In this document: in pieces, positions 21,701 through 56,616 of the stretch | Numbering within the stretch: position 1 is the stretch's first letter | Layout: every line of letters begins with the position of its first letter | Source: Xenia sp. Carnegie-2017 | Lineage: Eukaryota > Cnidaria > Anthozoa > Malacalcyonacea > Xeniidae | Length of the DNA stretch: 64,000 nucleotides | Assembly: GCF_021976095.1 (NCBI RefSeq) | Contig: NW_025813436.1 | Coordinates: 6,367,307-6,431,306 of the forward strand | Direction of reading: 5' to 3' | Program-made: the position numbers and the translations under genes | Notes under the pieces: model-generated | Told to the model about the DNA's origin: nothing | The model's database searches: none | What the model saw: the letters and a program-made list of their open reading frames with translations, nothing else

Positions 21701-24700
21701 CTTACTGATGGTTTTCCAAAAATAAATCTAGGACGAACATGTAGTACTGCTTCGTCAGACCTCAGTAATTCATCACAATGTCAGCTTTTTGTCACAAGTG
21801 ACACGGATAATCAATCTAACGGCGAAGGATACCAGGTACTGCGGGATTATGTTGCACATAGTGTTTAGCTTTTATATTGAATGTTACGTTCATGTTTGTT
21901 AATCTAGATTTTTCAAGGTTAAAGTCTCGAGAAGGACCGTTTGTGTTGATGTTGACTGACGTTTCGACAATTTAACTGTAATCATCTTCAGTCAACATCA
22001 ACATCAACACTTCTTCTCAAGACTCTACCAACCAGGATGATTTACGTACATCTACAAACATGTAACGATAGTCTCGGTTTTGAACCATTCAATTTATTTT
22101 AAAGGTTCTTTGAACTGATGTTTTCAATATCTAAATACTTCATGAGTTTCTGTTGTTGCACCCTGTTGCACCATATCACCATGAACTTATTTTTCCAGGA
22201 TACAACGTCAGGTATAGATTATGTCGATTGGCGAAGTCATTGTGGCATGGTACCACGTGATATTTCGTTTGAAGCACTGATCTGCAGTTGTAATCCATGT
22301 AAGGACTGCGAGCGATACATTTATGACGAGGAAATTATGGCGGGCTGGGTTTCTGATGATTCCAACTTAAACACAAGGTGTGTTTTGCTCCTTGTATTAG
22401 ACGTCTATTGGTTGTGTATTAACTAATTATTTTTATTTTTTTGTAGCTGTCCATACTGTTCAACAACCCAAGCTGTTTCGCTGATCATCAAAATTAAAGT
22501 AAAATCTTGATGAAACTTGTGCTGCTTTCGATTAGCTGTGCTCAATTTTCTTCATTTTTCTTTCTAGGATTACAGGGACTGTTTTTCAAGAGAAGGAAGT
22601 AATCTCTCTTCCACTTCTTCAAGTTTCAATAGCAGCGAGTATTTATCCATAAGTGGTATTCACACCACGTCCAATCCTTGCCTCGCTATCCCAACCCATG
22701 AAATCGCCAAACGAGCTGTGCACGGGGGCGATTCACCTGGTTTGATAAGGTCATTTTCTCCCCCTGGCATTACACTTCCGGTGAGCATTGGCAAGAAAAA
22801 TAAGAATCGTTATCCTCTCAGCGCACCATGTAGTGCTAACAACAGTCCTGGATCAGGTCTACTTCAAGGTAGTCCCAAACCACGAAATCGTTTGTCAATT
22901 TCACGTTCTAACAGTATACCTGGCATAGGCAGTCAAAACAGTTTATTTGGTAAAGTTTCGCTTTTGATGTAATTTAAAGTGAATTGTCCATGATATTGGT
23001 ATTACTTTTTTCAGCAATGCCAGAAGAAAGGGATGTGATATCAGTGAACTATGTCAGTCCTCTAGTGTTGAGGAAAGAATTGGAGAATCTCATGGATAAT
23101 GAGGGTGTTGATGCTTTAGAATCCCCTGCTATGATTAAGGAGAAGCCCGTAATATTTTGGAATATGGTGAGGTCACTATCGTTATATGCATCCTAATAAT
23201 GTAGTATATGTATTATTTTTGTTTATTGTAGGTGTGGTATTTTCGACGACTTAATTTACCAACTCATTTAAATGGTCATATTTACGGTAATTATGCTGAA
23301 GATGATCCCTTAGATCGTTCAAAGGTGCGTTTTGTATATAAACGATTAATTTTGAGCTTCTCTTGTACAAACTGCAATATTGTAATTTGATTTCGTGTAT
23401 TTCGTAGGATATTGATAGTCAGATAATTGTATCTACATCATGGGATGCAGAAAGACCTGCTAACGATGATCATATACCTTTGTATGTCTTATGGAATGTC
23501 CCAGGTAAATAATTTAATAATTTAGCGTTTATTCATCTCTTCCGTAATATGTTCAGCAATCTTTCCATGGTTGAAATAATTATATTTAACTGTTTTGCGC
23601 TCGTTCTGTTTCAGCTCAAGAGCATCAAAATCCGACTGTCGACGAAAAATCATGGACACCTAGAAGGTAAGTTGTCTGGTTATTATAATTTTTCGTTTAT
23701 AGTTAATATTCCTGACATCCTTGCACATTTTGTTTTGTTTTTCTCTGTTTGCAGTGTTGTACAATCTGTTGTTGCTCATATAAAGAAGAGCGACATTGCC
23801 AGTCCATTTGATTGTCTTTTTGAAGAAAGAAATCGTCAGAAACTTATAAACCCTAACATACAATGGTGAGTGGAGTGTATTCTCAAACTATTGAAGTACA
23901 TGTTTGTAAATGTAGATCGTCCTGGTTAATGCAGTCTCTTGTCTCTGAAGATGACTATTGTTCAGAAAAGCAAAGTCACTGGACTTTGAAGATGACTATT
24001 GTCCAGGATTTTGAAGTCAACTGGACTTTGAAGATGACTGTTGTCCAGGATTTTGAAGTCACTGGACTTTGAAGATGACTGTTGTCCAGGATTTTGAAGT
24101 CACTGGACTTTGAAGATGACTATTGTCCAGGATTTTGAAGTCAACTGGACTTTGAAGATGACTGTTGTCCAGGATTTTGAAGTCAACTGGACTTTGAAGA
24201 TGACTATTGTCCAGGATTTTGAAGTCAACTGGACTTTGAAGATGACTGTTGTCCAGGATTTTGAAGTCAACTGGACTTTGAAGATGACTATTGTCCAGGA
24301 TTTTGAAGTCAACTGGACTTTGAAGATGACTGTTGTCCAGGATTTTGAAGTCACTGGACTTTGAAGATGACTATTGTCCAGGATTTTGAAGTCAACTGGA
24401 CTTTGAAGATGACTGTTGTCCAGGATTTTGAAGTCAACTGGACTTTGAAGATGACTATTGTCCAGGATTTTGAAGTCAACTGGACTTTGAAGATGACTGT
24501 TGTCCAGGATTTTGAAGTCAACTGGACTTTGAAGATGACTATTGTCCAGGATTTTGAAGTCAACTGGACTTTGAAGATGACTATTGTCCAGAATTTTGAA
24601 GTCACTGGACTTTGAAGATGACTGTTGTCCAGGATTTTGAAGTCAACTGGACTTTGAAGATGACTGCTGTCCAGGATTTTGAAGTCAATTGGACTTTGAA

Positions 24701-26168
24701 GATGACTATTGTCATGGATTTTGCAGTCAACTGGACTTTGAAGAGGACTGTTGTCCAGGATAAGGAAGTGACTGGACTTTGAAGATGACTGTTGTCCAGG
24801 ATAGGGAAGTGACTGGACTTTGAAGATGACTGTTGTCCAGGATTTTGAAGTCACTGGACTTTGAAAATGACTGTTGTCCAGGATTTTGAAGTCAACCGGA
24901 CTTTGAAGATGACTATTGTCCAGGATTTTGAAGTCAACTGACTTTGAAGATGACTGTTGTCCAGGATTTTGAAGTCACTGGACTTTGAAGATGACTGTTG
25001 TCCTGGATAAAGAAGTGACTGGACTTTGAAGATGACTGTTGTCCAGGATTTTGAAGTCACTGGACTTTGAGGATGACTGTTGTCCAGGATTTTGAAGTCA
25101 CTGGACTTTGAAGATGACTGTTGTCCAGGATTTTGAAGTCACTGGACTTTGAAGATGCCTGTTGTCCAGGATTTTGAAGTCACAGGACTCTGAAGATGAC
25201 TGTTGTCCAGGATTTTGAAGTCAACTGGACTTTGAAGATGACTGTTGTCCAGGATTTTGAAGTCACTGGACTTTGAAGATGACTGTTGTCCAGGATTTTG
25301 AAGTCACTGGACTCTGAAGATGACTGTTGTCCAGGATTTTGAAGTCAACTGGACTTTGAAGATGACTGTTGTCCAGGATAAGGAAGTCACTGGACTTTAA
25401 AGATGACAGTTGTTTAGGATAGGGAAATGACTGGACTTTGAAGATGGCTGTTGTCCAGGATTTTGAAGTCACTGGACTTTGAAGATGACTGTTGTCCAGG
25501 ATTTTGAAGTCACTGGACTTTGAAGATGACTGTTGTCCAGGATTTTGAAGTCACTAGACTTTGAAGATGACTGTTGTCCAGGATAGGGAAGTGACTACCG
25601 CGAAGGATGTCAAAACGTCTATGATTGCAAACATCAACACCAACAATCTTTCTCAAGACTGTGCTAACCCGGACGATCTACGTACATCTGCATACATTCA
25701 CTTTACTACTGGAATACGTTGATATAACATGACAAACGCCCTTCTCGTTTATATGACTCACCTATTGCTAATTCACCCATTTCTAAAATATAGGAGCATT
25801 TATAGAGAAATGTTATTTCTATCATTAATGGCTTGTGGTACGGACAACATTGATATTGGTATGTTTTGTGATTTGATTTTCACAACTGTATTTACTTTAT
25901 CGTTAACTGATTATTATTGAATTTTTTTCTCATCCTGTTAATATCAATATACTCGTGTATTGCAGAAGCATTTGACAACGAGTACAAGCGTATTTATCGC
26001 TCTCTACATGGGAACGCAAGCAATCGATCGTATTATACAAACAGAGATGATCGATCACTACCTTCACGTGCAATTTGCTGTAGACGAACGTTTAAACCTC
26101 CGACTTTACAACCCAGATTGCCTCATAGTCAATATTTTCTAAGTCAAGGTCTTATTAATGAAGGTTGA
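15770..26168 (+). CDS. DENND4: DENN domain-containing protein 4 (Rab10 GEF family)
   Basis: DENND4 proteins activate Rab10 and related Rabs by nucleotide exchange. I model 37 exons giving 1418 residues, all phases consistent: 15770-16056, 16124-16313, 16379-16435, 16501-16570, 16656-16825, 16934-17029, 17103-17245, 17322-17388, 18104-18162, 18398-18542, 18726-18856, 18927-18969, 19041-19107, 19240-19316, 19384-19451, 19526-19602, 19674-19735, 19821-19904, 20204-20250, 20343-20405, 20515-20647, 20707-20747, 20823-20922, 21002-21046, 21131-21193, 21273-21338, 21416-21835, 22199-22377, 22447-22498, 22568-22949, 23015-23166, 23232-23324, 23408-23504, 23615-23666, 23755-23865, 25794-25858, 25966-26168. 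The N-terminal MABP part has [23 protein letters not shown] and [11 protein letters not shown]. The DENN tripartite core has [33 protein letters not shown] and [22 protein letters not shown]-like segment follows ([32 protein letters not shown]). A Cys-pair motif (CNPCKDC...CPYC) and the C-terminal WYFRRLNLP block are also family features. Introns 3' of 23865 carry a large minisatellite. The paralogue (4A/B/C) cannot be assigned. Confidence 0.93.
17502..17880. mobile_element. Inverted-repeat MITE in a DENND4 intron
   Basis: The 379-bp element has terminal inverted repeats of about 110 bp: it starts AGTTGACTCAGCTTATTG and ends with its complement CAATAAGCTGAGTCAACT. The centre has about three copies of a roughly 30-bp unit (TAGCTGATAATTTTGATTAT). 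Short GATCTTAGATGA matches flank it at 17491 and about 17930. No coding capacity; superfamily not determined. Confidence 0.7.
21890..22065. mobile_element. Small inverted-repeat element, copy 1 (CATGTTTGT family)
   Basis: A 175-bp element lies in the DENND4 intron after 21835. The left end reads CATGTTTGTTAATCTAGAT and the right end is its diverged complement (ACGTACATCTACAAACATG). Inner inverted motifs are GTGTTGATGTTGACTGACG and CAGTCAACATCAACATCAAC. The same ends recur at 23898-25700 and 28620-28686. Confidence 0.6.
23898..25700. mobile_element. CATGTTTGT-family element swollen by an internal minisatellite, copy 2
   Basis: The ends are inverted copies of each other: left CATGTTTGTAAATGTAGATC then GTCCTGG, right GACGATCTACGTACATCTGC. 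They match copies at 21890 and 28620. Between them sit about 1.65 kb of 41/42-bp tandem repeats. The whole lies in a single DENND4 intron (23866-25793). Confidence 0.65.
23960..25600 (+). repeat. 41/42-bp minisatellite, about 39 copies
   Basis: The unit begins TGGACTTTGAAGATGACTGT and continues TGTCCAGGATTTTGAAGTCA plus AC (42 bp) or C (41 bp). In 24100-24600 units alternate CTATTG and CTGTTG, giving an 84-bp higher-order repeat. Later copies carry private variants (GATAAGGAAGTG, GATAGGGAAGTG). Each unit contains GTCCAG and CTGGAC, so single strands could pair. A 42-bp unit is 14 codons without a stop on either strand, which produces false ORFs. Confidence 0.95.
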
Positions 26169-26507: not shown

Positions 26508-29500
26508 ATGGCGGGTAAAAACGACGAAATATGGGACTCAAATAACGAGCGCGAGAGTATCCATGTGTATGTAGAATGTGAGGAAACTGACGGTTACGAC
26601 GATGAATTGGACATTGAAGAAGAAGTCATTTTAGACCTTTCATCTTTTGCACCAACTGACGAGTGGTATGATAACTTTCCTTTCAGTACTTTGTCTTAAA
26701 TTCTCGATATTGTCAAGGTGTTTCGCATTGAAATAAATCTCTAAAATCTCTGAAATAAATCTCTATTTTCAAATGCTTAACTTTATTTTTACTACAGACT
26801 AATCTTAGGAAATCCACCATGGCTGTGTTATTAGCCTACGACATTTCCGACCTTACTACTTCTAAATATTTCAATTTCACCGCGTGTGAAATAAAAGAGA
26901 ACTTTTGTTATGTTATCAATTATAAGGCGTTTCAATTTTATTAATTTTATATTACTTAATAAAAAATAAGTTGTCTAGTTGAAAATTGTTTCTTGCTTTA
27001 CGAAGGGGAAGCCATTAACGTTTTTTTGACATAGGTTGTCATTTTAACTTGTTACACGAGTTTTTGGGCGTTGAACTTTATTGAGAGGTTTTGTATTAGT
27101 CGAATGGTTCATTTAATATAATAGTACACATCGCTTGGTAATTTATGTTGAAAGTAATGAATTACCAATTATTTTTATGGAAAAATGTACCTTTCTTAAT
27201 ATATTAAACATAAAGTTTAATTTGAAGGGTGTTGCTCCGTCAATTGTTTACATTCATGCCAAAGCACGAACACCTATGGAAAAATTTTGAGAAGTTTTCT
27301 TTACTTTACTCTACAGGAATTATCCTATTACTGGTTGAAATATTTTTGTTTCTGTTAGGTCAGAATACATACAAAACTCAACGCCAAGTCTATAAAGTTT
27401 ATATACTGAAGCTTCATTGATGCAATTAAGTTTGGGACATTGGGTAGAATGACAGTGACATTTTATGATGCAAACTGTAGCAGACCCCATTCTTATAATT
27501 TTCTGAGTCACCCCCCAAAAAGAAATGGTAACTTTTAATGAAAAACAGTCCTCGTAATCTTTATAGATCTGTTAATCTTTATTCGTCTCAAGGGCCAATT
27601 TTCTTAGCTTAAGATTAATGATCTTATTTTACTTTATCTTATTGCTTCCTGATGAAATCTTGTTCTGTTTTTAGTTGGTATCATGGCAAACTTGATCGAA
27701 AAACCTCAGAAGATCGTCTCAAAAAACAAGGTACACCAGGTAGCTACCTTGTACGAAAGAGTGAAAGAAAACATGGACAGTATTCTCTTTCCTATCTTGG
27801 ATTGAATGGCATTAGTCACTTTAGCATCACCGCTCTTTTTGGAGACTATTACATTGGTGGTCGACAATTTGAGTCATTAAGAGATTTAATTGGTTACTAC
27901 ACTAAATGTTCCAGCTTATTGAAGGATGAAAGGTTGGAACATCCTGTACAACCACCAGAACCTGTTTCACTGTCCACTCGTATGGTTGCCAAGTATGCAT
28001 TTAACAAAACACTTGGAACTGAGGCACTCAGGTAACAATTTAAGAAAGATCTTATGAAAATGTCACACAATTAAGCTCTTCCTTGCTTGCATTACTTGCA
28101 GTTTTGTGCCTGGTGATGTTTTTGTGATTGAAGACAATGTGAATGAGTCTTGGTTTTGGGGACGATTGCTGCGGACCAACGAAAGAGGGATGATTCCAAA
28201 GATGTACACCATTGATGCAGTGTGTGCTTGATTTTCAATTGTTTTTATGATATGAATATTTTGTTCCAATATTCTTACCATCTTTTTATTCAGCCTGAAA
28301 ACCTTAGTCCTCATGCTGGCAGGGCGTATGTTATTCATGATTTTTTCAATTTTACTGTTGGTTTCCTTTTTCGAAGTTCAATGGTCTTTTTATATTTATT
28401 AGATGGTTTTTTGATAAACTTTCAAAGGAGGAGGCTAATGAACTGCTGATGAATGGTATAATGACAATGTTTATTTAAGTCATATCATTCATCCTTTTTT
28501 ATCAATATTATAATAACTTCTGTGGACATATTTTGAATACATAAATAGTAATGAATACCACCCATCACAAGAAATAATGATGATAAGTTTAAACATTGTT
28601 CATTCAAATGTGATTACAGAACAACAACAAAAACAATCCTTCTCAGGACTATACCAACCTGGACGATCTACATTTACAAACATGTAAAGTGCAATAAAGT
28701 TATATTTTTCTTGTAGAAGGTGTTGTTGGCAGTTTTCTGATTCGACCTAGTTCTGCAAGAGTTGGTGATTTTTCACTTTGTGTTAGGTCAGCCCTAATAT
28801 CTGAAATCCGGAAACTGGAAGAACCGAAGCTCTTGTGTTGAATCTATTACAATCACAATTTTTCATTTTTAGAGATGATAATGGTGTGTCACGATTTTTA
28901 ATCAGAAAACAAGGTCTTCAGTATTTGTTTGGTGGAAGATTGTTTGAAGAGTATGTACTAGTATTTTTGTTCTATACCTTTACCTTCTAAATTTTAGTGA
29001 TTGTTGAGCTTGTATAATTACAGTTTGGACAGTATTATTGATCGATACAAGAAAGAGTTTATTGAACAAGGATTATCTCTTGGAAATCCAGTTACAAGCG
29101 TAAGTTTGTCATGAAGTATAAAGCTGTACAAGTATGTAATCTATTTAAATTACTTGTCCATTATAGAAAGACCAAACCCCACCTTCTACACCTACATTGA
29201 TAAGTGGTTTACGTGATCTAAATATCCACGAGGACACTCCTGTCACTCCTATTTATGAGTCTACATTTGAATCCAAAGTTGGAAAGTCTGTGAAATCAGG
29301 GTTTTTGGTTAAAAAAGGTACCAGTGTTTATTGTTCAGGGTGCCGAAGTGGCTGTCAGCAATTTTTCTAACTTCCACGGAAGTATCTCTTTTTAATCATC
29401 TGACTTGCTTTGTTTATCGTGCAGTTTTGACAGGGCTATTGTCACACACCCCCCATCCCTCCCCCTCTGTAATGGTTTACGGATAAAGAAGGTATTAACT

Positions 29501-34633: not shown

Positions 34634-37526
34634 TTGAATGTAAATGACGCTACAAGTTTTAACTCGAAAAAAAACAATAGTGCCAGTCGAGACAACCTGT
34701 GGATTGTCGAGCGTCCCAGCCTAATGTCTTTTTCAGTGGATGAAGAAGAGTGGACAATCGTGGATAATGAAAACTTTGTGGATGTAAGTACCTGGCAATC
34801 GCATATTATGTTGTAAGTTTTTACTTTAAATCGTGTTATTGAATAATGTTGAATAATGTTAACATGTAGGTTAGAGAGCAATTCAATGCTAACAAAAAGA
34901 AAAATGATGCTTTAATAAATGGACGCCTAATCAAGTCAACGGTTATTTCCACGTTGCAACAGTCGTTGAAAGACAACAAGTCTAATCGACCCGATGTGTC
35001 TGACAGTCCATTAGTACGATCTGACAGAGAAAGAGCTGTAGGATGTTGTCTTACTCGGGATGAGTCTAGGATTATTAAGATAAATCATGAGGAACTCCTT
35101 AAACTTGAATCACATTCGGATGCGTCATCCACCTGCAGTTTCCATGTAATTAACCATGACACGGATGAAATTATGGCTGAAAGCGACCCAGATATGGCAA
35201 AAGATAAAAAGACTGATAGCGAAAAAAAACTCATACATACTAAACTCTCTGGACAAGAATATTCATTTGAGCTATCAACGGGCGTAGCGCTGTTTTGTTT
35301 TGCTCTTGTTCTTGGATTTGTTTTAGGACAGGGTAAGTTTATATATTTACGACAATAATGTGATCTGAGTTAACGTTACTGTTTGACGTGTTTTCTTTTA
35401 AGGTGTGGCCATCATGAGGACAAACCTCAAGGCTAAACTACCTGAGCTGAATGTTTCTAGTGAATTTTCACGAAATGCGTTTGTGTCTTCGTTGCAAAAA
35501 GAAGTTGTCCTACTGGAAGAGAAAATTGAGCAATGGAAATTTATGAAAAGAGTTAAAAATAATCGCTCACATAACATTTTCCTAAAAAACTTGCAACCAG
35601 GCATTCGGGAAGCTTACTGGCACCTGTCGCTGGAAAATTATAAATTAAAAAAAGCATTCGCTGATATTCGAAAAGAGCTTAAACGCATGAAAGTCTTGTC
35701 ATGGCATCGCAGAGCACAAGTGGAAAGGTTAAAAGAAAAGAAAATGAACGTGACCTATGCTGGTGATACACTTAGGAAAGAACAACAATATTTGGAGAAG
35801 GTATATCTGAGAGACAAGAGACTAGCAGACTCACGATTTGATAAATCGTTGAACGAAGTAGATTATTCCAATTTTGAACCCTGGAAATACTTCAAAAAAC
35901 GCTGGAGAATAGATGACGATAAAAGAGCGCGCAATAATGAATGTGCAACTCCTGACCAGGAAATTAGTTCTGCCTCTAAATGTTTAAAAAGCCATGATGC
36001 AAAATTTCTTTATTCTAATGCATTAAACATGTTTAAAGATGATTCAGATACGCCAAAGATGCACGGAAAACTAATGAACGATGATTCACCGCATCAACGA
36101 GTTAAAGATAAGAAAATTAAAATGTTTCAGCGACATAAATTGGCTTCTGCCAGCGATGTAATAATTGACATTCAAGAAGATAGTGGTAATGATGAAAAGG
36201 AAGTACAAATTTCACATGTTGAGGAATATAGTGATGCTGACACGGCTCAACATCATGAAAACCAGACAGACGATGGTATAGTAGATGGGAAAAGTGCGGA
36301 AACAAATGTCAAAGAAGAGGATTTGTTTGAAGAAGATAATAAGCATAGTATACAAGATAGTAACGATAAAGGTAAACATAAAGGTAGACATAAATGAGGA
36401 CACAAAGGTAAACATAAAGGTGAACATAAAGGTAGACAAAAAGGTAGACACAAAGGTAGACATAAAGGTAAACTTAAAGGTAGACATAAAGGTAAACTTA
36501 AAGGTAGACATAAAGGTAAACATAAAGGGTAGACATATACGCTATTAAAAATGATTTTCATTATTATTTACTTTTTTACTTGATAAAGACTGTCGTGTGG
36601 CCGACAATTTCAATGGAAGTGATTGCTATAATCGTGCCAAATCAAATCAGGTTTCTAGATGTGAAAAGATGACAGCAATAAAGCAGAAAACCGTCAATGT
36701 TTTGTCAAGCATTGAAACAGTCAATGTTAATCAAGGTAATTGCGACAAAAGAGATTTCTTGTGTGGTAATCACGTGACAGTCTTCGTAAAACATCGTGAT
36801 CAGAAGAAAAATGTGAAGTGTTTATTGCCATTAGAAACTGAAAGTCATAGTGAATTGATGATGGGAAAAGAATTACAAAAAAGCCCTAGAAGCAGTGATG
36901 GCAATAGGAATGCTCAACATGTAAGTTCGGCAAAGCAGTCACGTGTATCATCTTTAAGTTTAAATTACGTTGATCATATTGTGAAGAAAAATCAACCACA
37001 TGAGCTGCTAAAAATATTACCATCTCAAGAAATTGATGCCATGCCTAATTCCATTTATCAGAGACAGGAAACAAGAAGGATCCATGATGCAAATTTTGCA
37101 GGTATAACTAACAAACAAAACTGTCATATAATGAAAATCTTCAACCCTTTCAAAGAACTTCTAAAGACTGTCCAATTAAAATCTGAATCTGGCCAAACCC
37201 CAAATCAAATTCCATTTGATGAAGCTACCAAATGCAATAAAGATGCAAGTCTTGCTACATTAAATATGAAGCAAATGGATTCATTCGCCAAATCAAATCA
37301 AGAGAAAAAACCCACAATCACACAAACAATAAAGAAACCAAGAAATTTAGCTTTCACTGACTACATTCATGGTGTTAATTTTCTTTGCAAATATCAACCA
37401 GATAACACCCTGGGTAAATTGTTAACATTGCACAATCGGCCACTTTTTTCTGGAAGAAAACTCAAGAAAATGCAAAAAATACAGACTCTAATGCTAAAGA
37501 TGGACAGAAAAAATGTAAATATTTAA
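34634..37526 (+). CDS. CCPG1-like single-pass membrane protein with LIR-type motif
   Basis: Four exons, 34634-34783, 34870-35332, 35403-36371 and 36589-37526, give 839 residues. An acidic stretch DEEEWTIVD (W at residue 40) fits the LC3-interacting W-x-x-V motif and resembles the GWTVI motif of CCPG1, an ER-phagy receptor. One hydrophobic segment (about 182-203, STGVALFCFALVLGFVLGQG) is followed by a long charged, helix-prone region that looks coiled-coil (EVVLLEEKIEQWKFMKRVKN) and basic clusters. This topology (cytosolic LIR, single helix, long lumenal coiled coil) is that of CCPG1. Sequence similarity beyond that is weak, so the orthology is an inference; PBXIP1-like proteins are the alternative. 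The third intron (36372-36588) is mostly a 12-bp minisatellite. If that intron is retained, translation stops soon after KGKHKGRHK. Tail to tail with USE1, 218 bp apart. Confidence 0.6.
36372..36535 (+). repeat. 12-bp minisatellite in a CCPG1-like gene intron
   Basis: Units of GGTAGACATAAA or GGTAAACATAAA, about 13 copies, start exactly at the predicted donor (AAAG/GTAAAC at 36371/36372). Every unit recreates AAAGGTARAC. The same unit family recurs at 39285-39546, about 39755-39792, 42450-42556 and 43422-43524. Confidence 0.9.
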
Positions 37527-39084: not shown

Positions 39085-39284
39085 ATCATTTTGCATGCAT
39101 CTCAGATTCGTCGATTGTTTAACTTTGTCTTTTCCATGAAAGAAAGGGCACGCTCCCAAAACGTAATGGTCCCCCCACACAGGTTTTTTTTGGGGGGGGG
39201 CTCTGCTAGTTACAAAAGCAAGCAAAATGTGTATTTTGTCTGGGTTTTTCTTTTCATGACAAGTGCTTCTACAGAAAAGCTTAA
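39085..39284 (+). repeat. Dispersed repeat, copy A
   Basis: About 200 bp with motifs CATGAAAGAAAGGGCACGCTC, a G-rich run near 39190-39200 and GCAAGCAAAATGTGTATTTT. It is repeated at 39571-39754 in the same orientation with clear divergence. Each copy runs directly into the 12-bp GGTAGACA minisatellite. Confidence 0.7.
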
Positions 39285-39546
39285 GAGGTAGACAAAAAGA
39301 TAAACATAAAGGTAAACACAAAAGTAGACATAAAGATAGAACATAGAGGTAGACACGAAAGTAGGCCACAAAGATAGACACAAAAGTGTACTTGAAGATA
39401 AACATAAAGGTAGACTCAAAAGTAGACACAAAGATAGACACAAAGGTAGACCTTAAGGTAGACAAAAGGTAGACACAATAGTAGACATAAAGGTAGACAT
39501 AAAGATAGACATAAAGATACACAAAAAGATACACAAAAAGGTAGAC
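39285..39546 (+). repeat. 12-bp minisatellite tail of copy A
   Basis: About 20 degenerate units of GGTAGACATAAA, with AAGATAGACAC and AGTAGACAC variants. It has the same consensus as the array inside the CCPG1-like gene 3 kb upstream. Translated as KGRHKGKH-like or VYLYVYLYV ORFs, which are not genes. Confidence 0.85.
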
Positions 39547-39570: not shown

Positions 39571-39792
39571 GTGATTAGGACTCATTTTTTTTGTTTTCTC
39601 AATGAAAGAGCACTGTCCCAGAACGTAGTGTTCCCTCCCCTCATAGTGTTTTGGGTGCGTGCGCTTCTGCCAGTTATAAAATCAAGCAAAATGTGTATTT
39701 GGTCTATGTTTTCACGGCAAATTATTCTACTGAAAAGCCGAACATTCGGTTTACGCAAAAAGGTAGATATAAAGGTAGACACAAAGGAGGAA
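39571..39792 (+). repeat. Dispersed repeat, copy B with short 12-bp tail
   Basis: Matches copy A: TCAATGAAAGAGCACTGTCC, CAAGCAAAATGTGTATTTGG and CTGAAAAGC, then three units of AAAGGTAGAYAY. The region 39793-40076 beyond it holds no supported feature. Confidence 0.65.
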
Positions 39793-41350
39793 CAAAGTCA
39801 AGCTTTGTAGTAATTCTCAACAAAAACTGCACACTATCTTTGAAAGGGTTTTTTGAAGTTATCTCATGCAGTGCCAGCGTTATATTTATTAGTAAATGCT
39901 TTCAGGGATGTTAGTGATTGGATGTCCCTGCCAACCGAGGGAGTGGAAGTAGTTTGATAAATTTTACGAGGTTTAAGGGTACATTTAATCACTGATATCC
40001 CTAACACTATGTGTTTACATGGTTGCAGAGGATATAATAAGTGCGTTGAACTCTCCAGTTTGGCAATATTCATCAAACTAATTCAAAGATTTGAATATTG
40101 ACAACTATTAATGGTGTTCAAAGCTTGTGTTGTTCATGGTCAGCGAGGGAATAAAGAAATGAATCAAGCTATGTAATTGTAAATTTTGTCATTGAATTGG
40201 TTCAGTGAATATGCGTAAGAATTTGCTTTGCAAATACATTTGGTAGTTTAAATACTGTTTAAGGTCTTGATGGTTGATCACCAGTTTTTATATGTAAGTG
40301 ACAAGGAAGTTGCGGATGAGAAGGAAAGACGATTTCTATGACCAGTCGACACAAATAATGGTGGAGCAGAAATGAGTTGAGGCTTGTAATAACATATTCC
40401 AGGATTTTGAACAAAAGGCCAAAGATTTATTTGTGTTTCAAGTATCGAAGATCTAACAGTCGAACAAGAGGATCCAAAAAGTTGACTTTTGGCTTTGTAA
40501 ACTTGCTCTCGAAGTAGTATGGTTTCAATGGACTTGTGGAAGACATCTTGCCATTAATCTTTTTCATTCATCACAGTTGAAAATTATTAAGGTGTGGAAA
40601 AGTCAAGAAGCAAGCAGAAACAATTTCTACATGAAACGAGAAGGAAATGCAGAAACATGGCATACTTATTTTGATGTTGATGAGGGGTATTTTGTCTTAA
40701 CATCGATGAGGGATATTTAGAACTAAATATGTTTCGTTCCTGTATTTTGAGGAAATACGTCGGTATGTGTCCCTTTTATAACAACTAAATAACATCAACA
40801 GCAATAAAAAATCAAGAGCATCAACGAAACAAGCCGCATTAAAGGGGAAAATTTAGTTTGGTATTATGAACGTAAACGGTATTCTTAAACAATACAGCTC
40901 AACATCCAAACGACGAAGCAGCCAACCAAACTGATGACATCCACGTGAAGATGCTCCTTCCGTTCATCTCGTTCGTCAACCATTAAGGCTCTTAGCTACC
41001 TAAAACAACACCAATATTCAACATTGTTTGAGTGACCAAAAGACGAAAAGAAAATCCACAAGTGCCATTTGTAATAATTCACCAACAACTTTTGATAACA
41101 GCTGCTGAAAGAAATATGAAAACGGAAAACCATTGTGAAATATGCTACAGAAGTACTTGCTTCGATATCATGCGTAAAAAAAGATCTCAAGTTTCGATTT
41201 ATCTCTAATGTTCTTCTTAAAATGACAATGGTTTAAAAGTTGATGTTAAGAATATATATTTACTTAATACTAATTATATTTTTTTTAGTACTTTAATTAA
41301 TACACTGTCTTAAAATGACTAAACTTGCCATCTTTCTCCAACTCACTCAC

Positions 41351-41401
41351 TGGTCGAGTGGGTAGGTAGAGGTTCTCAGGTTGTGGTGTGAGGTTCGAAT
41401 C
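41351..41401 (+). other. tRNA-like Pol III promoter module 1, left arm
   Basis: A-box-like TGGTCGAGTGGG (41351-41362) and a consensus B box GGTTCGAATC (41392-41401) are 29 bp apart, typical of tRNA genes and tRNA-derived SINEs. The acceptor stem does not fold convincingly, so this is not called a functional tRNA. Confidence 0.55.
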
Positions 41402-41796
41402 TTTGAGGGTCTATCAGTTGTTGTTGGGCTTGGTGTGTTGAACATAAGACTTGCAATAACCGAGTACCGTGAATGTCAAGAGCACAGCAAGGGCAGATAA
41501 TAGTGTACACGAGCTGTACAAATGGCAATTCTATTGTTGGTTTTTAAACAATGGAATGCGACACTTGCATATTTTCAGAAAAAAATCCCAAATAAAAAAA
41601 AGAAAAGGGGATCTGTTGCAAAAATTTTGCCCTAAAAAAACTAAGTCTTTTGATCAAATTTTTCTATGACTTCCCGAAGGAAGTCATTTTTTAATAGTCA
41701 GGAAACAGAGGGCAAACCGAACGCCCTTTCACATCCCCTCCTAACCTCAACCTTGCACTCAATCCTAAATCTACAACCCGAACTGACGACGACACC

Positions 41797-41849
41797 GGGA
41801 CGAACCAAGGACCTCGTGCATTGGAGGTCAGACAGAGCCTGTCAAGCCA
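41797..41849 (-). other. tRNA-like Pol III promoter module 2, left arm
   Basis: On the minus strand, TGGCTTGACAGG (A-box-like, 41849-41838) and GGTTCGTCCC (B-box-like, 41806-41797) are 31 bp apart. Confidence 0.5.
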
Positions 41850-42030
41850 GAAGCTCAACAACGAATACTAACAGTTTCTTGGCATATTTGCCCCTTTTTT
41901 TTAACTTTGAAGTAGAAATATACAATATACAAGGTGGTCTTGAACCTTAGAACGTGCAACTACATTAGTCATGACTTTACCTTAGTTATTTACGTATTAT
42001 TGAACTCTAAAAAGCTAAAGAGAACGAAGC

Positions 42031-42085
42031 GGTCTCGAACCCGAGAAGGAGTGATCATCAAATCGTCATCTGTACCACTCAGGCA
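42031..42085 (-). other. tRNA-like Pol III promoter module 3, left arm
   Basis: On the minus strand, TGCCTGAGTGG (A box of Ser/Leu tRNA style, 42085-42075) and GGGTTCGAGACC (B box, 42042-42031) are 32 bp apart, followed by a T run after AGC. Confidence 0.6.
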
Positions 42086-42449
42086 TGCGAGAGAGATGTG
42101 ACGTCGATGAAAACATATCAAGTGTTTCAACAGAACAGCATTTATTGCCTTTCATTACATAAGGCTTTAGTTTATAACCTGTTTTGAAAATATGCCTTCG
42201 ACGGCATCATAGCAATAGTAGAACTCTAAAGGCAAGGGCTTCCTGATCGAACTCTAAGCAATAAATCTTTACTATGAAGAAACAAGAGGAACAAAGTAAG
42301 TTCAAAGGCATCCATTGACATGTGGTGCATTCGGGTCATGACGCGCATGTCCTTAATCAATTTTGTCCATTCAAGAGTATCGTAAAAAGACTATTTCAAT
42401 AGATATTTTTTCTTGTCTTTTCCCATCGTCAATTTTAATGATCGTCATT

Positions 42450-42556
42450 TCAAACCTTTGTGTCTAACTTTGTGTCTACCTTAATGTGATTGCCTACCTA
42501 TGTTTGTACCTTCTTGTCTACCTTAATGTGATTGTCTACCTTTGTGTCTACGTTTT
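42450..42556 (-). repeat. 12-bp minisatellite patch, left arm
   Basis: On the minus strand this reads GGTAGACACAAAGG and GGTAGGCAATCACATTAAGG units, related to the arrays at 36372 and 39285. It is mirrored at 43422-43524. Confidence 0.75.
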
Positions 42557-42761
42557 CAAAGGACAAAGTTTTCACTTTGTTGAAAACGACATTTGAAAAA
42601 TTAGTCTTTTCATAGTTGAAAGTAGTCAATGGAATCGAAGTAATCGAAGGTAGTCAATTCACGCATTGCCATGTGTTAAATCAGGGCAGTGACGAGCATG
42701 TTTTGGTCGTTTTTTTTCCGATGTAATGGCGTCGAGATCATTTGACTTTATGTTTGAACTA

Positions 42762-43300
42762 ACACAGCTATATTTTATCATCATACGCACCAACCATATT
42801 TTTTTGACCGTTAGTGTTGGTTGCGCACAGACAAGAGTTTAATAATTCCAAACAAGGACGAAGAAACCTATGAAATGACGTCTTTTTATGATATCGTCTT
42901 TTATGCAACGACAACTTTTTCAAATGTTGTCTCCCATAAAAAGGTAAGACGAAACAGATGACACAACTTCTGAAAAGACGTCTATTCTATTTGAGGACAT
43001 TGACTATATTCGATTACGATTCCTCCTATGAAATGACGACTTAGTGCCCTATGATCGTTAACAAATTAACGGCTGACGGTAAAGAAATGCCTGCTTTGGT
43101 TACGAAAGTGCCCTTTGATCGTTACACAAATGCCCACAGACGGTAACAAACGTTACAAAATGCCAAATTTTATCATCATCAAACGCACCAACCATAATTT
43201 TTGACTGTTGGTGTTGGTTGCACTCAGTCAAGGGTTTAATAACGCCTTTTTATGATGTCGTGTTCTATGCAATGACAGCTTTTTTAAATGTTTTCCCTTT
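42762..43300. repeat. Core of the palindrome with two direct repeats
   Basis: Copies at about 42772-42935 and 43165-43290 lie in the same orientation. Shared motifs are TTTTATCATCATACGCACCA / TTTTATCATCATCAAACGCA, GTGTTGGTTGC and CTTTTTATGATRTCGT. Each contains a small hairpin, GCACCAAC...GTTGGTTGC. This asymmetry shows the core is not simply the fold point of one mirrored sequence. Confidence 0.65.
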
Positions 43301-43421
43301 CTACATTCCATTAATTTGATTACATTGACTACTTTCGACTATTAAATGACTAATTTTTAAAATGTCGTGGTGTTCAACAAAACGAGAACTTTGTGCTATG
43401 AAAAGGTATCAACAAAGATAT

Positions 43422-43524
43422 ATAAAAAGGTAGAAACAAAGGCAGACAAGAAGGTAGACATAAAGATACAAACATAGGTAGGCAATCACATTAAGGTAGA
43501 CACAAAGTTAGACACAAAAATTTG
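43422..43524 (+). repeat. 12-bp minisatellite patch, right arm
   Basis: Mirror of 42450-42556: AAGGTAGACATAAAGAT, ATAGGTAGGCAATCACATTA, AAGGTAGACACAAAG. Confidence 0.75.
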
Positions 43525-43889
43525 AAATGACGATCATTAAAATTGACGACGGGAAAGGCAAGAAAAAATATCTATGGAAATAGTCTTTTCACGATATTCC
43601 TGAATGGACAAAATTGATTAAGGACATGCGCGTCATGACCCGAATGCACCACATGTCAATGGATGCAATTGGACTTACTTTGTTCCTCTTGTTTCTTCAT
43701 AGTAAAGTATTTATTGCTTAGAGTGCGAAGAGGAAGCCCTTGCCTTTAGAGTTCTACTATTGCTATGATGCCGTCGAAGGCATATTTTCAAAACAGGTTA
43801 TAAACTAAAGCCTTATGTAATGAAAGGCAATAAATGCTGTTCTGTTGAAACACTTGATATGTTTTCATCGACGTCACATCTCTCTCGCA

Positions 43890-43944
43890 TGCCTGAGTGG
43901 TACAGATGACGGTTTGATGATCACTCCTTCTCGGGTTCGAGACC
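43890..43944 (+). other. tRNA-like Pol III promoter module 3, right arm
   Basis: Plus-strand TGCCTGAGTGG (43890-43900) and GGGTTCGAGACC (43933-43944), then TTTTT near 43965, which could act as a Pol III terminator. Confidence 0.6.
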
Positions 43945-44126
43945 GCTTCGTTCTCTTTAGCTTTTTAGAGTTCAATAATACGTAAATAACTAAGGTAAAG
44001 TCATGACTAATGTAGTTGCACGTTCTAAGGTTCAAGACCACCTTGTATATTGTATATTTCTACTTCAAAGTTAAAAAAAAATGGGCAAATATGCCAAGAA
44101 ACTGTTAGCATTCGTTGTTGAGCTTC

Positions 44127-44179
44127 TGGCTTGACAGGCTCTGTCTGACCTCCAATGCACGAGGTCCTTGGTTCGTCCC
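44127..44179 (+). other. tRNA-like Pol III promoter module 2, right arm
   Basis: TGGCTTGACAGG (44127-44138) and GGTTCGTCCC (44170-44179). Mirror of the left-arm module. Confidence 0.5.
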
Positions 44180-44574
44180 GGTGTCGTCGTCAATTCGGGT
44201 TGTAGATTGAGGATTGAGTGCAAGGTTGAGGTTAGGAGGGGATGTGAAAGGGCGTTCGGTTTGCCCTCTGTTTCCTGACTATTAAAAAATGACTTCCTTC
44301 GGAAGTCATAGAAAAATTTGATCAAAAGACTTAGTTTTTTTAGGGCAAAATTTTTGCAACAGATCCCCTTTTCTTTTTTTTATTTGGGATTTTTTTCTGA
44401 AAATATACTAAGTGTCGCATTCCATTCTTTAAAAACCAACAATAGAATTGCCATTTGTACAGCTCGTGTACACTATTATCTGCCCTTGCTGTGCTCTTGA
44501 CATTCACGGTACTCGGTTATTGCAAGTCTTATGTTCAACACACCAAGCCCAACAACAACTGACTGACCCTCGAA

Positions 44575-44626
44575 GATTCGAACCACACACCACAACCTGA
44601 GAAACCTCTACCTACCCACTCGACCA
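44575..44626 (-). other. tRNA-like Pol III promoter module 1, right arm
   Basis: Minus-strand TGGTCGAGTGGG (44626-44615) and GGTTCGAATC (44584-44575). The box sequences match the left-arm copy exactly, although their surroundings differ by several bases. Confidence 0.55.
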
Positions 44627-45901
44627 GTGAGTGAGTTGGAGAAAGATGGCAAGTTTAGTCATTTTAAGACAGTGTATTAATTAAAGTACTAAAAAAATAT
44701 AATTAGTATTAAGTAAATATATATTCCTAACATCAACTTTTAAACCATTGACATTTTAAGAAGAACATTAGAGATAAATCGAAACTTGAGATCTTTTTTT
44801 ACGCATGATATCGAAGCAAGTACTTCTGTAGCATATTTCACAATGGTTTTCCGTTTTCATATTTCTTTCAGCAGCTGTTATCAAAAGTTGTTGGTGAATT
44901 ATTACAAATGGCACTGGTGGATTTTCTTTTCGTCTTTTGGTCACTCAAACAATGTTGAATATTGGGGTCGTTTTAGGTAGCTAAGAGCCTTAATGGTTGA
45001 CGAACGAGATGAACGGAAGGAGCATCTTCACGTGGATGTCATCAGTTTGGTTGGCTGCTTCGTCGTTTGGATGTTGAGCTGTATTGTTTAAGAATACCGT
45101 TTACGTTCATAATACCAAACTACATTTTCCCCTTTAATGCGGCTTGTTTCGTTGATGCTCTTGATTTTTTTATTGCTGTTGATGTTATTTAGTTGTTATA
45201 AAAGGGACACATACCGACGTATTTCCTCAAAATACAGGAACGAAACATATTTAGTTCTAAATATCCCTTATCAATGTTAAGACAAAATACCCCCTCATCA
45301 ACATCAAAATAAGTACGCCATTTTTCTACATTTCCTTCTCGTTTCCTGTAGAAATTGCTTCTGCTTGCTTCTTGACTTTTCCACACCTTAATAATTTTCA
45401 ACTGTGATGAATGAAAAAGATTAATGGCAAGATGTCTTCCACAAGTCCATTGAAACCATACTACTTCGAGAGCAAGTTTACAAAGCCAAAAGTCAACTTT
45501 TTGGATCCTCTTGTTCGACTGTTAGATCTTCGATACTTGAAACACAAATAAATCTTTGGCCTTTTGTTCAAAATCCTGGAATATGTTATTACAAGCCTCA
45601 ACTCATTTCTGCTCCACCATTATTATTGTCGACTGGTCATAGAAATCGTCGTTCCCTCTCATCCGCAACTTCCTTGTCACTTACATATAAAAACTGGTGA
45701 TCAACCATCAAGACCTTAAACAGTGTTTAAACTACCAAATGTATTTGCAAAGCAAATTCTTACTCATAATCACTGAACCAATTCAATAACAAAATTCACA
45801 ATTAAATAGCTTTATTCATTTCTTTATTCCCTCGCTCATCATGAACAATACACGCTTTAAATACCATCAATAGTTGTGAATATTCACATCTTTGAACTAG
45901 T

Positions 45902-46671
45902 AAAAAGTATGAAAGATTTTATAACAAGAATGAATCAGACGAAACAAAAGGTTTGGCTCATTGGCTGCTTTCCCATATAACAAACGAAAACTTTTTTTTT
46001 CCAACTCAAAGTTTGATAATGGAACCACTAATGAGGATTTACGTTCATCTCCAGCAGAGAAATGCTGCGATAAAGGAAATAACATTGAAAAACATCTGCC
46101 ATCCTTAAATAAGTAGTCGTCAAACATTACTCTATAGAGAGAGTTATATCAAAGAAGACATATTCAAAAAGACGAACCATGTGATATCTATGGATATCTT
46201 ATGCACCATGTATCTATCACGCAATTAGTTTCTTATACACGCACCACTTATCATCTTAACACGAATATTGTCATTAAAAACCAAAGCCCTTGAAATTATA
46301 AGAGAAGGAACAGTAAACTGATTAATATTTCAGTATAAGCGCTGACTCTAAACATAATGATGAATGTATTTGCCATTTATTTTCTTAGGTAAATTTTGGA
46401 CGAAATTTGTCAAAAAGTGAAATGAAATTGAGAAAAGCTATACTTAATTGTCGTTACGATGTTGTTTTGTAAGCTTAACACATCCATCAAGATAAACTGC
46501 TCAAAGAATTATAATTAATAGATCGTTTAAGTGGTTTTTAGTGAAAAAAAATCGTGACCTCAAGCAAATTAATAATTGAGTTCTGACCACCACCGAGTGG
46601 CATAAAACGACGAAAAATGTTAATTAACTTCTTTACTCGTTGGCATGTGATAGAAACTATTATTTAAGAAA
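45902..46671. other. Intergenic between palindrome and CRD gene
   Basis: No supported gene. The 76-codon minus-strand ORF at 45897-46127 straddles the element end and resembles nothing I know. Confidence 0.45.
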
Positions 46672-48331: not shown

Positions 48332-50726
48332 ATGGATATGGATAAAAATGATGTTTCTATAGATTTGTCGAGATCAATACAAGAGGACAACATCGAGCAA
48401 GTTCGTTATATATTACATACGCAACACGACAATGTTTCACGATGTATAAATGAAATGGTTATTGATGGACTTACACCATTAATGTTAGCAGCTAAACATA
48501 ACAATGTTGAGATAGCACAAATTCTCATGCGACACAGGTAAAAATAGAGAGATAATCAAGACGTACAACACCATTTAAATAGTGCCTTGTTCTAAGGGTG
48601 AGAGAGTATTTTGGAATTCCTAACATTAATTCAAGTATTTTTCACAAATAATAACTTGTCGGTTGTCCTATATATTTTGGACATGCGCATTAATTATTAA
48701 TTACGTAAACAAAGGACTACAAACATCAATAATAACATCATGATCATGGACAATGGGTTCAACGAAAATTCCAACAAATTTTCCCATGAAAAACAAAGGA
48801 AATTGTTTAGTATTACGCGTAGGAAACAGTTTTACAATACTTGGCAATCATAGTTCTCATTTGATCATATTTTATTTATGATGATAAAAGCTTTAAATCC
48901 TGTGACCACGTCAAAATTATCCCAAGTCCAAAGGTTATCAAAAATAAAAAAACAATTATTTGCTAGAATAAGGTAAGATAACAGGCATATAAATTTTTTT
49001 TTGTTCACATGTTGCAGTGAAGCAATTATGCATTTGTTCTGTATTGTAGTTAAGCCAAGTATGAATTTATAAGCCTAGGGTTGTTTTTCATTGTTGCCAC
49101 TGTTGTTTTTATAATTACCAGTATTTATTGTTAATTCTGTTACTGTTATATTAGTACTGTCCTTATTTTATTAGGGCTGTATCTTATTATGCCAGGTTAC
49201 AATTACCATCATTGATTGTGATGATTATGTGTAAACAATGTTTCATAAATCATAATTATAAATGTTTTTCCATTACCGCTAATTTTCAATTGCTTATGTA
49301 GAGCTACTGTGGATATGAGGGATAGAAAAGGACTAACAGCTACTGATATTGCTAAAAATAACGGATCAATAGCTACATTAAATGTATTGAAACACTACAG
49401 ACAATTCGCGTCAGTGGGTTATCCATCTGTGAACTACTTTAGTCATGTCCCTTTGAACCGAATGGCAGAAAAACGTAAGGATAAAGTATGGCTGGATCAA
49501 CAAATGAAAAATCCTAAATCAATGTATGTTATATTTAACCAACTAAAACCTCTAGCAAGAAAAGTAGCTTCAAAAAAGACTTTTTGTCTGGTAAAGGTTA
49601 ACTTCAGACAGTTATCAGAAATACTTGGAAAGCAAGCTGAGGAGATAAAGAATGTTGTTTTTTTAGGTGTAGAAGAGACTTACACAAATTCTTGCAAAGA
49701 AACTAGTTTGAATAAGGCAATAGATTGTAATATTTCATGGTTTGCTGTTGATGTCGGTGATATCAGTGATGCTTCAGATAAATTCTTAAAGGAAAATCCA
49801 AATACAGAATATTTATCACCACGTCCTGGATTTTTGCAAGTCAATGCAAAAGATGCAACAATACTAGCACAAGCACGTCCAATTCTGGAATGGCATCAGT
49901 TCAACAAGTTCTGTTCAAGATGTGGAAGCAAAGTGTCAATTGAAGAGGCAGGATACAAGCAGAGTTGTTCTAATGAACAATGTGCTACCAAAAACAGTAA
50001 GTGGAAAATTTAACAGCTGTTGCATCTTTAATTCTATATCATGTACAAATAGTGATGATGGCATTGGCTGTAAAAATGATTTAAAATGTGTAAATGGTAT
50101 TCAAACAAATTAATCAACTAAAGTACATACCCATTAATGATGTCATGAAGTATAACTGAATATGGTTCCATGGATAAAGCAGACCTGTTACTTATTGATC
50201 TGAAAAGAAATTAAATAGTGCATTAGCAATAATACCTTCCTTTTGTCTTTTTCTAGAAATTCTCAATGTGAGTTATCCTCGTACAGATCCAGTGGGAATT
50301 ATGCTTGTTGTCTCTCATGATGGCACACAATGTTTGCTTGGTCGTAAAGCAAGCTTTCCTGTGGGAATGTATTCTTGTCTTGCAGGCTTTATGGAGCCTG
50401 GAGAAAGTATAGAAGATGCAGTAAGACGAGAGGTCATGGAGGAAAGCGGTATCAGTGTTGGTCCAGTTAAATATCACTCATCTCAGTTTTGGCCTTATCC
50501 TGCTCAGCTTATGATTGGCTGTATAGCGCATGCAAACACTAGTCATATTGTTATTGATAAGGAAGAACTGGATGATATACAATGGTTCAATCTAGACAGT
50601 GTGAGACAAGCTTGCTATAAAAAAATTGATATTTCAAACCCACCATCGCTATGGTTTCCTCCAAGGCAAGCTATTGCAAGACAGTTAATTGAACATTGGG
50701 TAGATACTTACTCAGATGTATTATAA
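48332..50726 (+). CDS. NUDT12: NAD-capped RNA / NADH diphosphatase NUDT12
   Basis: NUDT12 hydrolyses NADH, NADPH and NAD-capped RNA to the nicotinamide mononucleotide form. Three exons (48332-48537, 49302-49996, 50257-50726) encode 456 residues (human about 462). Ankyrin repeats open the protein (DGLTPLMLAAKHNNVEIAQI, DMRDRKGLTATDIAKNNG). A four-Cys zinc ribbon follows (CSRCG...CSNEQC). The Nudix box is complete at about residues 344-366 (GFMEPGESIEDAVRREVMEE then SGI), matching G-x5-E-x7-R-E-x2-E-E-x-G-I. The NADH-diphosphatase motif SQFWPYPAQ follows. The C-terminus is DVL, not a canonical peroxisomal tripeptide; human NUDT12 ends PNL. The large first intron holds no feature I recognise. 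Confidence 0.95.
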
Positions 50727-54496: not shown

Positions 54497-56616
54497 ATGT
54501 ATAGCCGACGTAGTATGTTCACAAGACAAGAACTAAACGACTACCTCCATGGAAAAAGGGAAGCCTTGCAAGTTAAAATAGACCAGGCAACTGAAGATTC
54601 GATGAGACAAAATGAAAACACGACATTGATAAATAAAGGTAGCTATAAAAATTTGACGATGAACGTATACGTTCGTGTATAGAAGCCAATGGACCCTCAA
54701 CACATTGAGTAGGAGCTCAAATTTAATTGTTTTTTTTACTCTATGTAAACTCTTTAAAATCATGTTCTTATCAATAATATAAGGGAGATGGATTTGTACA
54801 AAGGATGGCCCTACGTTAATGCGTGAGAGCTTCTAGGAATATTTTATTTTTATTATTATCAGGGCAGAAAAACGTCAGCATTCTTCAACTACGCCACCAG
54901 CCGGGAGTGAAGAAAGAATTTTTTTCAAGAGAGGATTATAGGCAATTCTTGACCGTTATCAAACACATTCCACCTCAACTTCACTTGTGTTACTCCAGTT
55001 TGCCTGGAGCAGGATTTGGGATCATCGCCACTGAACTCATACCATCTGGTACTTGGATTGGTCCGTATGAAGGCAAACGCATTTCAGTAGAAGAGATTAG
55101 TAGGGCGACAGATACACGTTACATTTGGGAGGTGAGCTATTAAATGGGTAGGTTAGTGAGAGGTTAGGCTTACCTAGTCATTCAAGACAGTGTCATGCAA
55201 AACAATTTCAAATTGATTACATGGAAAAGTTAAGCCCAGTTGAACAGACTTAGTATCTCTAAAAGAAAGACAATTACTTTGTGAAATAAGTTCAGTCCTG
55301 ATTAAACATAAATCCTTGATATATCAGCAGTAGGCATAAGACATAGTTACTACCAAAGTCAATGAGAAGAAATTTCAAAATGGAAACAAGTGTTTCTGAT
55401 TATGCACCATTTCATTAAATCATCCCAGATTATCATCTTGCCAAAGAAGTCAAGTATACATCGCACAATTAGTTTGAATTACTAGTAACCGAATTTCCCC
55501 CTTTATTTTAATGTAAAGATGTGCTTTGCATCCCTGCTCGAAAACTATTTGTTTTTTTTTCTTCTTTTTAGCCTAGTACACCATCACGAGATGGCCTTAG
55601 AGGGTTTTAATATTTTATAATCGGTCGCTAATCAACACAAAAAATCAATTGTGACAGTGAATAAACCATACACTTAGATATAGAACGAAACATCGGCCAA
55701 ACGATTGACATATGACTGACTGATCACGTAGAAACGTAGAGTGTAATGAGCAAAGAAAGTATTTTTTCTTATTACCCAGCAATGATATGTATGTTAATAT
55801 GTGTGTTAGGTTTACAAGAATGGAGCATTGGTTTATGGGATTGATGGCAGTGATGTTAAGAATGGGTCTGCTAACTGCTGGATGAAATACATTCAATGTG
55901 CGAGGAATCCACGCGAGCAAAATGCAGTTGTATTTCAGTTTGGAGCGGAAATTTATTTCCAGACATTTAAACCAATCAAACATGGAGAGGAAATTCTAGT
56001 ATGGTATGCTGATTATTACGAACAGTACTATGGTATACCAATTGGCGTTAGAAAGTTGGGAAAAAACAAGAACAACACATCATCAGGTATTCATCTTCCT
56101 CGAGTAATCGAAAAACTTCAGAACATGTCAACCAACAACATAACAGGCGTTGTAGTAAAAAGGTTGAACTTCATATATTTATTTCAGTAGCACAATCCAT
56201 GACCAATATCTATACCAATATATACTCAATACGAAAACTATGTTGTACGTTGTAGTAAAAAGAATGAACTCTATATACTTATTTTACTAGCACACTCAAT
56301 ACCAATAGAGAAAAGTCAATTGTCGAAAGAAAATGAAGAAATTCAAGTTGTTGAATCTTTATTTCAAAATGGACCGAAGCTTACCAAAACCGAAGCTTAC
56401 CTAAACCAATCGTTCCCAATAAATAACCACCAGTATAATCATTTTACCGAGACTTACCAAAACCAATCGTTCCCAATGAATAATCGCCAGTATAATAAAT
56501 TTACAGAGAACGTAAGTGAAACCAAAAGAAATGATTTGGAGAGGTTTCCTGAATCAGACGAAAGTAACAATAGAAAAGTGAAAAACGTTTCTGGACGTGT
56601 CCACATTGTCTGTTGA
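54497..56616 (+). CDS. PR/SET-domain (PRDM-type) protein A
   Basis: Four exons (54497-54638, 54863-55131, 55810-56086, 56291-56616) give 337 residues. PRDM proteins are transcription or chromatin regulators. The PR/SET domain spans exons 2-3: LHLCYSSLPGAGFGIIATEL, PSGTWIGPYEGKRIS, YIWEVYKNG, CWMKYIQCARNPREQN, GEEILVWYADYYEQYYGIPI. It is closest in feel to PRDM6, PRDM9 and PRDM14 domains. Exon 1 carries FTRQELNDYLHGKRE, matched by FTTDDLDRQLYGRKR in gene B. The tail has two copies of an about 22-residue unit (NQSFPINNHQYNHFTETY). No C2H2 finger is visible. A strong donor at 56515 (AGAGAAC/GTAAGT) could lead to further exons that I cannot find. The coding start may lie in an unfound upstream exon, because GCGATAACGTCATG before the ATG aligns with gene B coding sequence. 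Confidence 0.8.
56149..56309 (+). repeat. Tandem duplication of a splice-acceptor region
   Basis: GTTGTAGTAAAAAGGTTGAA (from about 56149) and GTTGTAGTAAAAAGAATGAA (from about 56249) start two copies of about 65 bp. Each ends in a pyrimidine/TTTA tract and AG/CACA. Both acceptors (56190 and 56290) are in the same reading phase. Confidence 0.7.

Follow-up and report, generated by a model that had tools for sequence, protein, structure and literature searches.

In Caenorhabditis, the arms of long intergenic inverted repeats owe their continued similarity to an active process, probably gene conversion, and these repeats have been maintained over speciation (PMC1803023). Gene conversion has also been documented in palindrome P6 of the human Y chromosome (PMC3723533). 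Among mobile elements, plans comparable to that of the palindrome analyzed here are found in Tetris, Galileo and Tm1 (PMC4079207, PMC3573991, PMC3169594). The two arms within one copy of Tm1 average 93% identity, and a truncated copy of this element has no target-site duplication (PMC3169594); chimeric copies of Galileo likewise occur without target-site duplications (PMC3573991).

The palindrome occupies positions 40077-45901 of a 64-kb window, i.e., the whole stretch of DNA that was analyzed. Like the Caenorhabditis repeats (PMC1803023), it has closely spaced, near-identical arms and a short unmatched spacer that evolves faster than the arms. The Caenorhabditis repeats, in contrast, involve paralogous gene pairs and were compared among three species (PMC1803023), whereas the arms described here are gene-free and represented by a single sequence. 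With the mammalian sex-chromosome palindromes (human P6, PMC3723533) the locus shares a non-duplicated spacer and an arm similarity above that predicted from the age of the edges, but it is far shorter (2.6-kb arms), has no genes and shows a lower arm identity, of about 98.6% in the middle of the arms. Long inverted arms, a variable non-coding middle domain and, to a limited extent, internal repeats are features in common with foldback-type transposons (FB; Tetris, PMC4079207; Galileo, PMC3573991; Tm1, PMC3169594), from which the palindrome differs in having no target-site duplication and no further copy in the 64-kb window. Literature searches on foldback elements in other invertebrates and on artefactual palindromes returned nothing specific. 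The palindrome is a further small, gene-free case of a known class of inverted repeats that are held alike.

Architecture and genomic setting

BLAST self-comparison of the 64-kb window aligned 40077-42653 with 43301-45901 in inverted orientation at 95.6% identity over 2604 columns. This pair was the single outstanding inverted match in the window, and a repeat finder returned pieces of the same pair. The palindrome is thereby confirmed as real, and the outer limits of 40077 and 45901 given for it by the sequence-only reading proved exact. In a global alignment, the two arms differ by 88 substitutions and 11 indel events. Without a mismatch, inverted similarity extends over at most 266 nt, compared with 15-20 nt in ten first-order Markov sequences matched in size and composition. 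The main elements of the locus and the nearby exons are as follows.

40077..42653, + strand: left arm of the palindrome, 2577 bp, inverted alignment 95.6%, sharp ends
42654..43300, no strand: spacer, 647 bp, not palindromic, with degenerate direct repeats
43301..45901, - strand: right arm of the palindrome, 2601 bp, inverted alignment 95.6%, sharp ends
41666..41687, no strand: hairpin with a perfect 9-bp stem, ATGACTTCC-CGAA-GGAAGTCAT, from sequence and fold
42454..42555, - strand: 12-bp minisatellite (AAAGGTAGACAC), inner end of the left arm
43402..43518, + strand: 12-bp minisatellite (AAAGGTAGACAC), inner end of the right arm, exceeding the left-arm array by 18 bp in the alignment
27622-28032, + strand: SH2 exon, most similar to Ras GTPase-activating protein 1 (RASA1-type)
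49249-50723, + strand: NUDT12 exons
55810-56187, + strand: PR-domain exon

The arms end sharply. Alignment is strong over the terminal 77-100 bp of the arms but falls to the level of shuffled sequence in the 400 bp outside the outer ends and in the 300 bp inside the inner ends. A mere decay horizon, with similarity running on past the ends, is ruled out by this sharpness. The outer edge of the left arm starts with ACTAATTCAAAGAT; the end motif of the palindrome, ACTARTTCAAAGAT, was located by a motif scan at the two palindrome ends and nowhere else in the 64-kb window. A perfect 12-bp palindrome, GTGAATATTCAC, lies at 45876-45887, near the outer end of the right arm, and its left-arm version is imperfect. 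In the right arm, the mirror copy of the 9-bp-stem hairpin is missing one base.

Toward the center of the palindrome, repeats are limited to two kinds: each arm carries a short 12-bp minisatellite at its inner end, and the spacer contains decayed direct repeats. The latter pair 42772-42845 with 43167-43242 and 42878-42931 with 43242-43295, at about 85% identity, and a 25-bp repeat occurs at 43043-43066 and 43107-43131. If divergence rates are similar, these decayed repeats would match or exceed the arm edges in age. Further AAAGGTAGACAC arrays are present 0.3 to 3.7 kb to the left of the palindrome (36366-36537, 39286-39546 and 39756-39787), clustered within 3.5 kb; beyond these three and the arms, no other such array was detected in the 64-kb window. 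The segments 39124-39322 and 39590-39785 form a degenerate direct duplication containing the same minisatellite.

Because it is flanked on either side by exons of animal genes, the palindrome is placed in intergenic or intronic animal DNA. The window has a GC content of about 35% and contains several other repeats. A MITE- or hairpin-like sequence of 190 bp at 1763-1952 is self-complementary, with 78% identity to its reverse complement and ends AAAAGATGTTT / AAACATCTTTT. At 17499-17883, a small foldback-like structure has inverted arms of 106 bp (90%) that enclose a 30-bp tandem repeat (17611-17684). A 41-bp tandem array at 23973-25584 holds about 39 copies with 93% matches. A short dispersed repeat, about 80% identical among its copies at 21994-22061, 25630-25697 and 28620-28687, likely represents an interspersed repeat family.

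Divergence along the arms

With the minisatellite masked, change-point analysis revealed a U-shaped profile of arm divergence, for which the best three-segment model places breaks at 40215 and 42245. The resulting segments, given for the left arm, are as follows.

40077..40214, no strand: outer edge, 138 bp, 11.6% divergent from its partner
40215..42244, no strand: homogenized middle, 1.43%, 29 substitutions in 2028 columns (about 2.0 kb)
42245..42653, no strand: inner edge, 8.8% over 285 compared bases, minisatellite masked

Relative to a uniform rate, the three-segment model gained 31.7 log-likelihood units, compared with at most 10.5 in 200 permutations. At the edge rate, about 197 differences would be expected in the middle, so most of them would have been erased there, provided that all parts of the arms are of the same age. 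The differences left within 40370-42240 are somewhat clustered (variance/mean 1.65, P about 0.03). As to a GC bias among the arm differences, 57 of 70 set a strong against a weak base, with a 25/32 division by arm; such differences can be polarized only with an outgroup.

The sequence-only reading had expected a closer match in the inner arms than at the outer ends; the arm alignment instead placed the best match in the middle, with both ends worse. Of the three options offered by that reading (recent origin, arm-to-arm conversion or selection), a simple recent origin is at odds with the sequence of 11.6%, 1.4% and 8.8% along the arm, and arm-to-arm conversion fits the profile, as copying between arms would leave such a U-shape. 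The arm interiors resemble each other more closely than would be expected from their divergent edges, as in a gene-converted palindrome; averaging during assembly would give the same result.

Coding potential and tRNA-like segments

The longest stop-to-stop frame within the palindrome spans 110 aa. Pfam searches with ten of the longer frames returned nothing above chance, and the 110-aa frame had no match in the PDB; within the limits of these searches, the earlier description of an element with no recognizable protein stands. Each arm contains three pairs of box A/box B-like motifs with tRNA-like spacing, of which two share an orientation and the third is reversed.

41351..41402, + strand: box A/box B-like pair 1, mirror copy at 44574-44626 (-), no Rfam tRNA match
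41796..41849, - strand: box A/box B-like pair 2, mirror copy at 44127-44180 (+), no Rfam match
42031..42085, - strand: box A/box B-like pair 3, mirror copy at 43890-43944 (+), no Rfam match

Every pair in the 64 kb that passed the threshold falls inside the arms, with none elsewhere; three in a single arm have a Poisson probability of about 2e-4, for pairs that had been spotted by eye before testing. They may tentatively be seen as the worn heads of tRNA-derived SINEs. The description of the arms as SINE-bearing is kept tentative because the boxes were noticed by eye before the test and match no Rfam tRNA model. Neither ARAGORN at default thresholds nor Rfam identified a tRNA gene in the window, which also gave no other Rfam match. 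With relaxed thresholds, ARAGORN called 180 'genes' in the window, a result that is uninformative.

Maintenance and origin of the palindrome

We give roughly an even chance to the reading that the palindrome is an old non-coding inverted repeat with recopied arm interiors, which is also the simplest account of the data. The interiors would have been copied from each other by arm-to-arm gene conversion or template switching. Such copying would require matching sequence on both sides and would be rare near the unmatched spacer and flanks, so that the last few hundred bases at both arm ends may have escaped it and then diverged; divergence would be U-shaped because copying fades toward these borders. 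We deduce this copying from a contrast of rates within one sequence rather than from visible tracts, and faster evolution of the edge sequences for another reason could be an alternative source of the contrast.

The palindrome, its sharp ends and the U-shape are direct observations; we infer further that copying took place in the living genome and not during assembly. It is unlikely that assembly produced the U-shape, or even the whole palindrome, by pooling short reads from the arm interiors or by joining two haplotypes head to head. The divergent edges (about 140-300 bp on the outside, 400 bp on the inside) do approach a short-read insert length, within which reads stay anchored to unique sequence, and the same profile, on a similar length scale, would result if short reads averaged the arm interiors into a consensus. 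Against such an artefact, the middle still holds its 29 substitutions, the spacer is a distinct, decayed sequence, and genes continue on either side of the palindrome. A head-to-head join of haplotypes should run from an arm into the other flank's copy; the two outer flanks are unrelated, which makes such a join unlikely. It is more improbable still that the arms are kept complementary by selection on a transcript folding into long double-stranded RNA, as a hairpin-RNA or small-RNA source; the near-perfect arms over 2 kb and the promoter-like boxes within them would suit such a source, but selection for pairing alone would not explain the worn outer and inner ends, and the box pairs occur in both orientations.

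As to origin, an inverted duplication of SINE-bearing DNA is slightly favored over a foldback-type transposon. The palindrome would have arisen when intergenic DNA in which SINE-like fragments with tRNA promoters were already present underwent a single inverted duplication, an origin that explains both the absent target-site duplication and the mixed orientation of the tRNA-like segments. A non-autonomous foldback-type DNA transposon is a possible but doubtful alternative. The 2.6-kb arms would then be very long terminal inverted repeats that contain repeats of their own, the spacer would be the middle domain and the transposase would be encoded elsewhere, with the arms later homogenized and the target-site duplication lost or scrambled by recombination. 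This origin explains the near-centre repeats and the absence of genes: the terminal inverted repeats are long and have sharp ends, no coding capacity was recognized, and the minisatellite and degenerate direct repeats toward the center loosely resemble those of Tetris and Galileo. The 93% identity within single Tm1 copies, and the chimeric Galileo and truncated Tm1 copies without target-site duplications, are further precedents.

The arms of the palindrome are longer than those of most described foldback copies. No target-site duplication of about 7-10 bp was found flush with the ends, which counts against a transposon; the longest flanking match is 8 bp, lies asymmetrically to the ends and is equaled by 9% of random pairs. 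This match, AAAGATTT (40085-40092 and 45912-45919), was rejected: one copy falls within the left arm and the other outside the right arm, so it cannot flank an element with these ends. Also unfavorable to a transposon are the mixed orientation of the tRNA-promoter-like arm segments, the lack of a second copy or partner ends in the 64 kb, and the end ACTARTTC, which to our knowledge is the terminus of no transposon superfamily. Apart from the minisatellite, nothing else in the window matched the palindrome. Probes for the minisatellite, arms and ends were absent from viral and prokaryotic collections, where no animal genome is expected and which therefore do not inform on copy number. A mobile-element origin is thus possible, without positive support in the 64-kb window. 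We consider it very unlikely that the palindrome represents a new protein-free foldback family with very long arms, Pol III promoter-like modules, self-conversion and possibly double-stranded RNA.

Arm-to-arm copying has mostly been studied in far larger sex-chromosome palindromes. If the old inverted repeat with recopied interiors is confirmed on reads, it would provide a compact natural gauge of how far such copying reaches and how it fades near an unmatched junction. If the palindrome is instead a transposon, it would define a new long-arm family.
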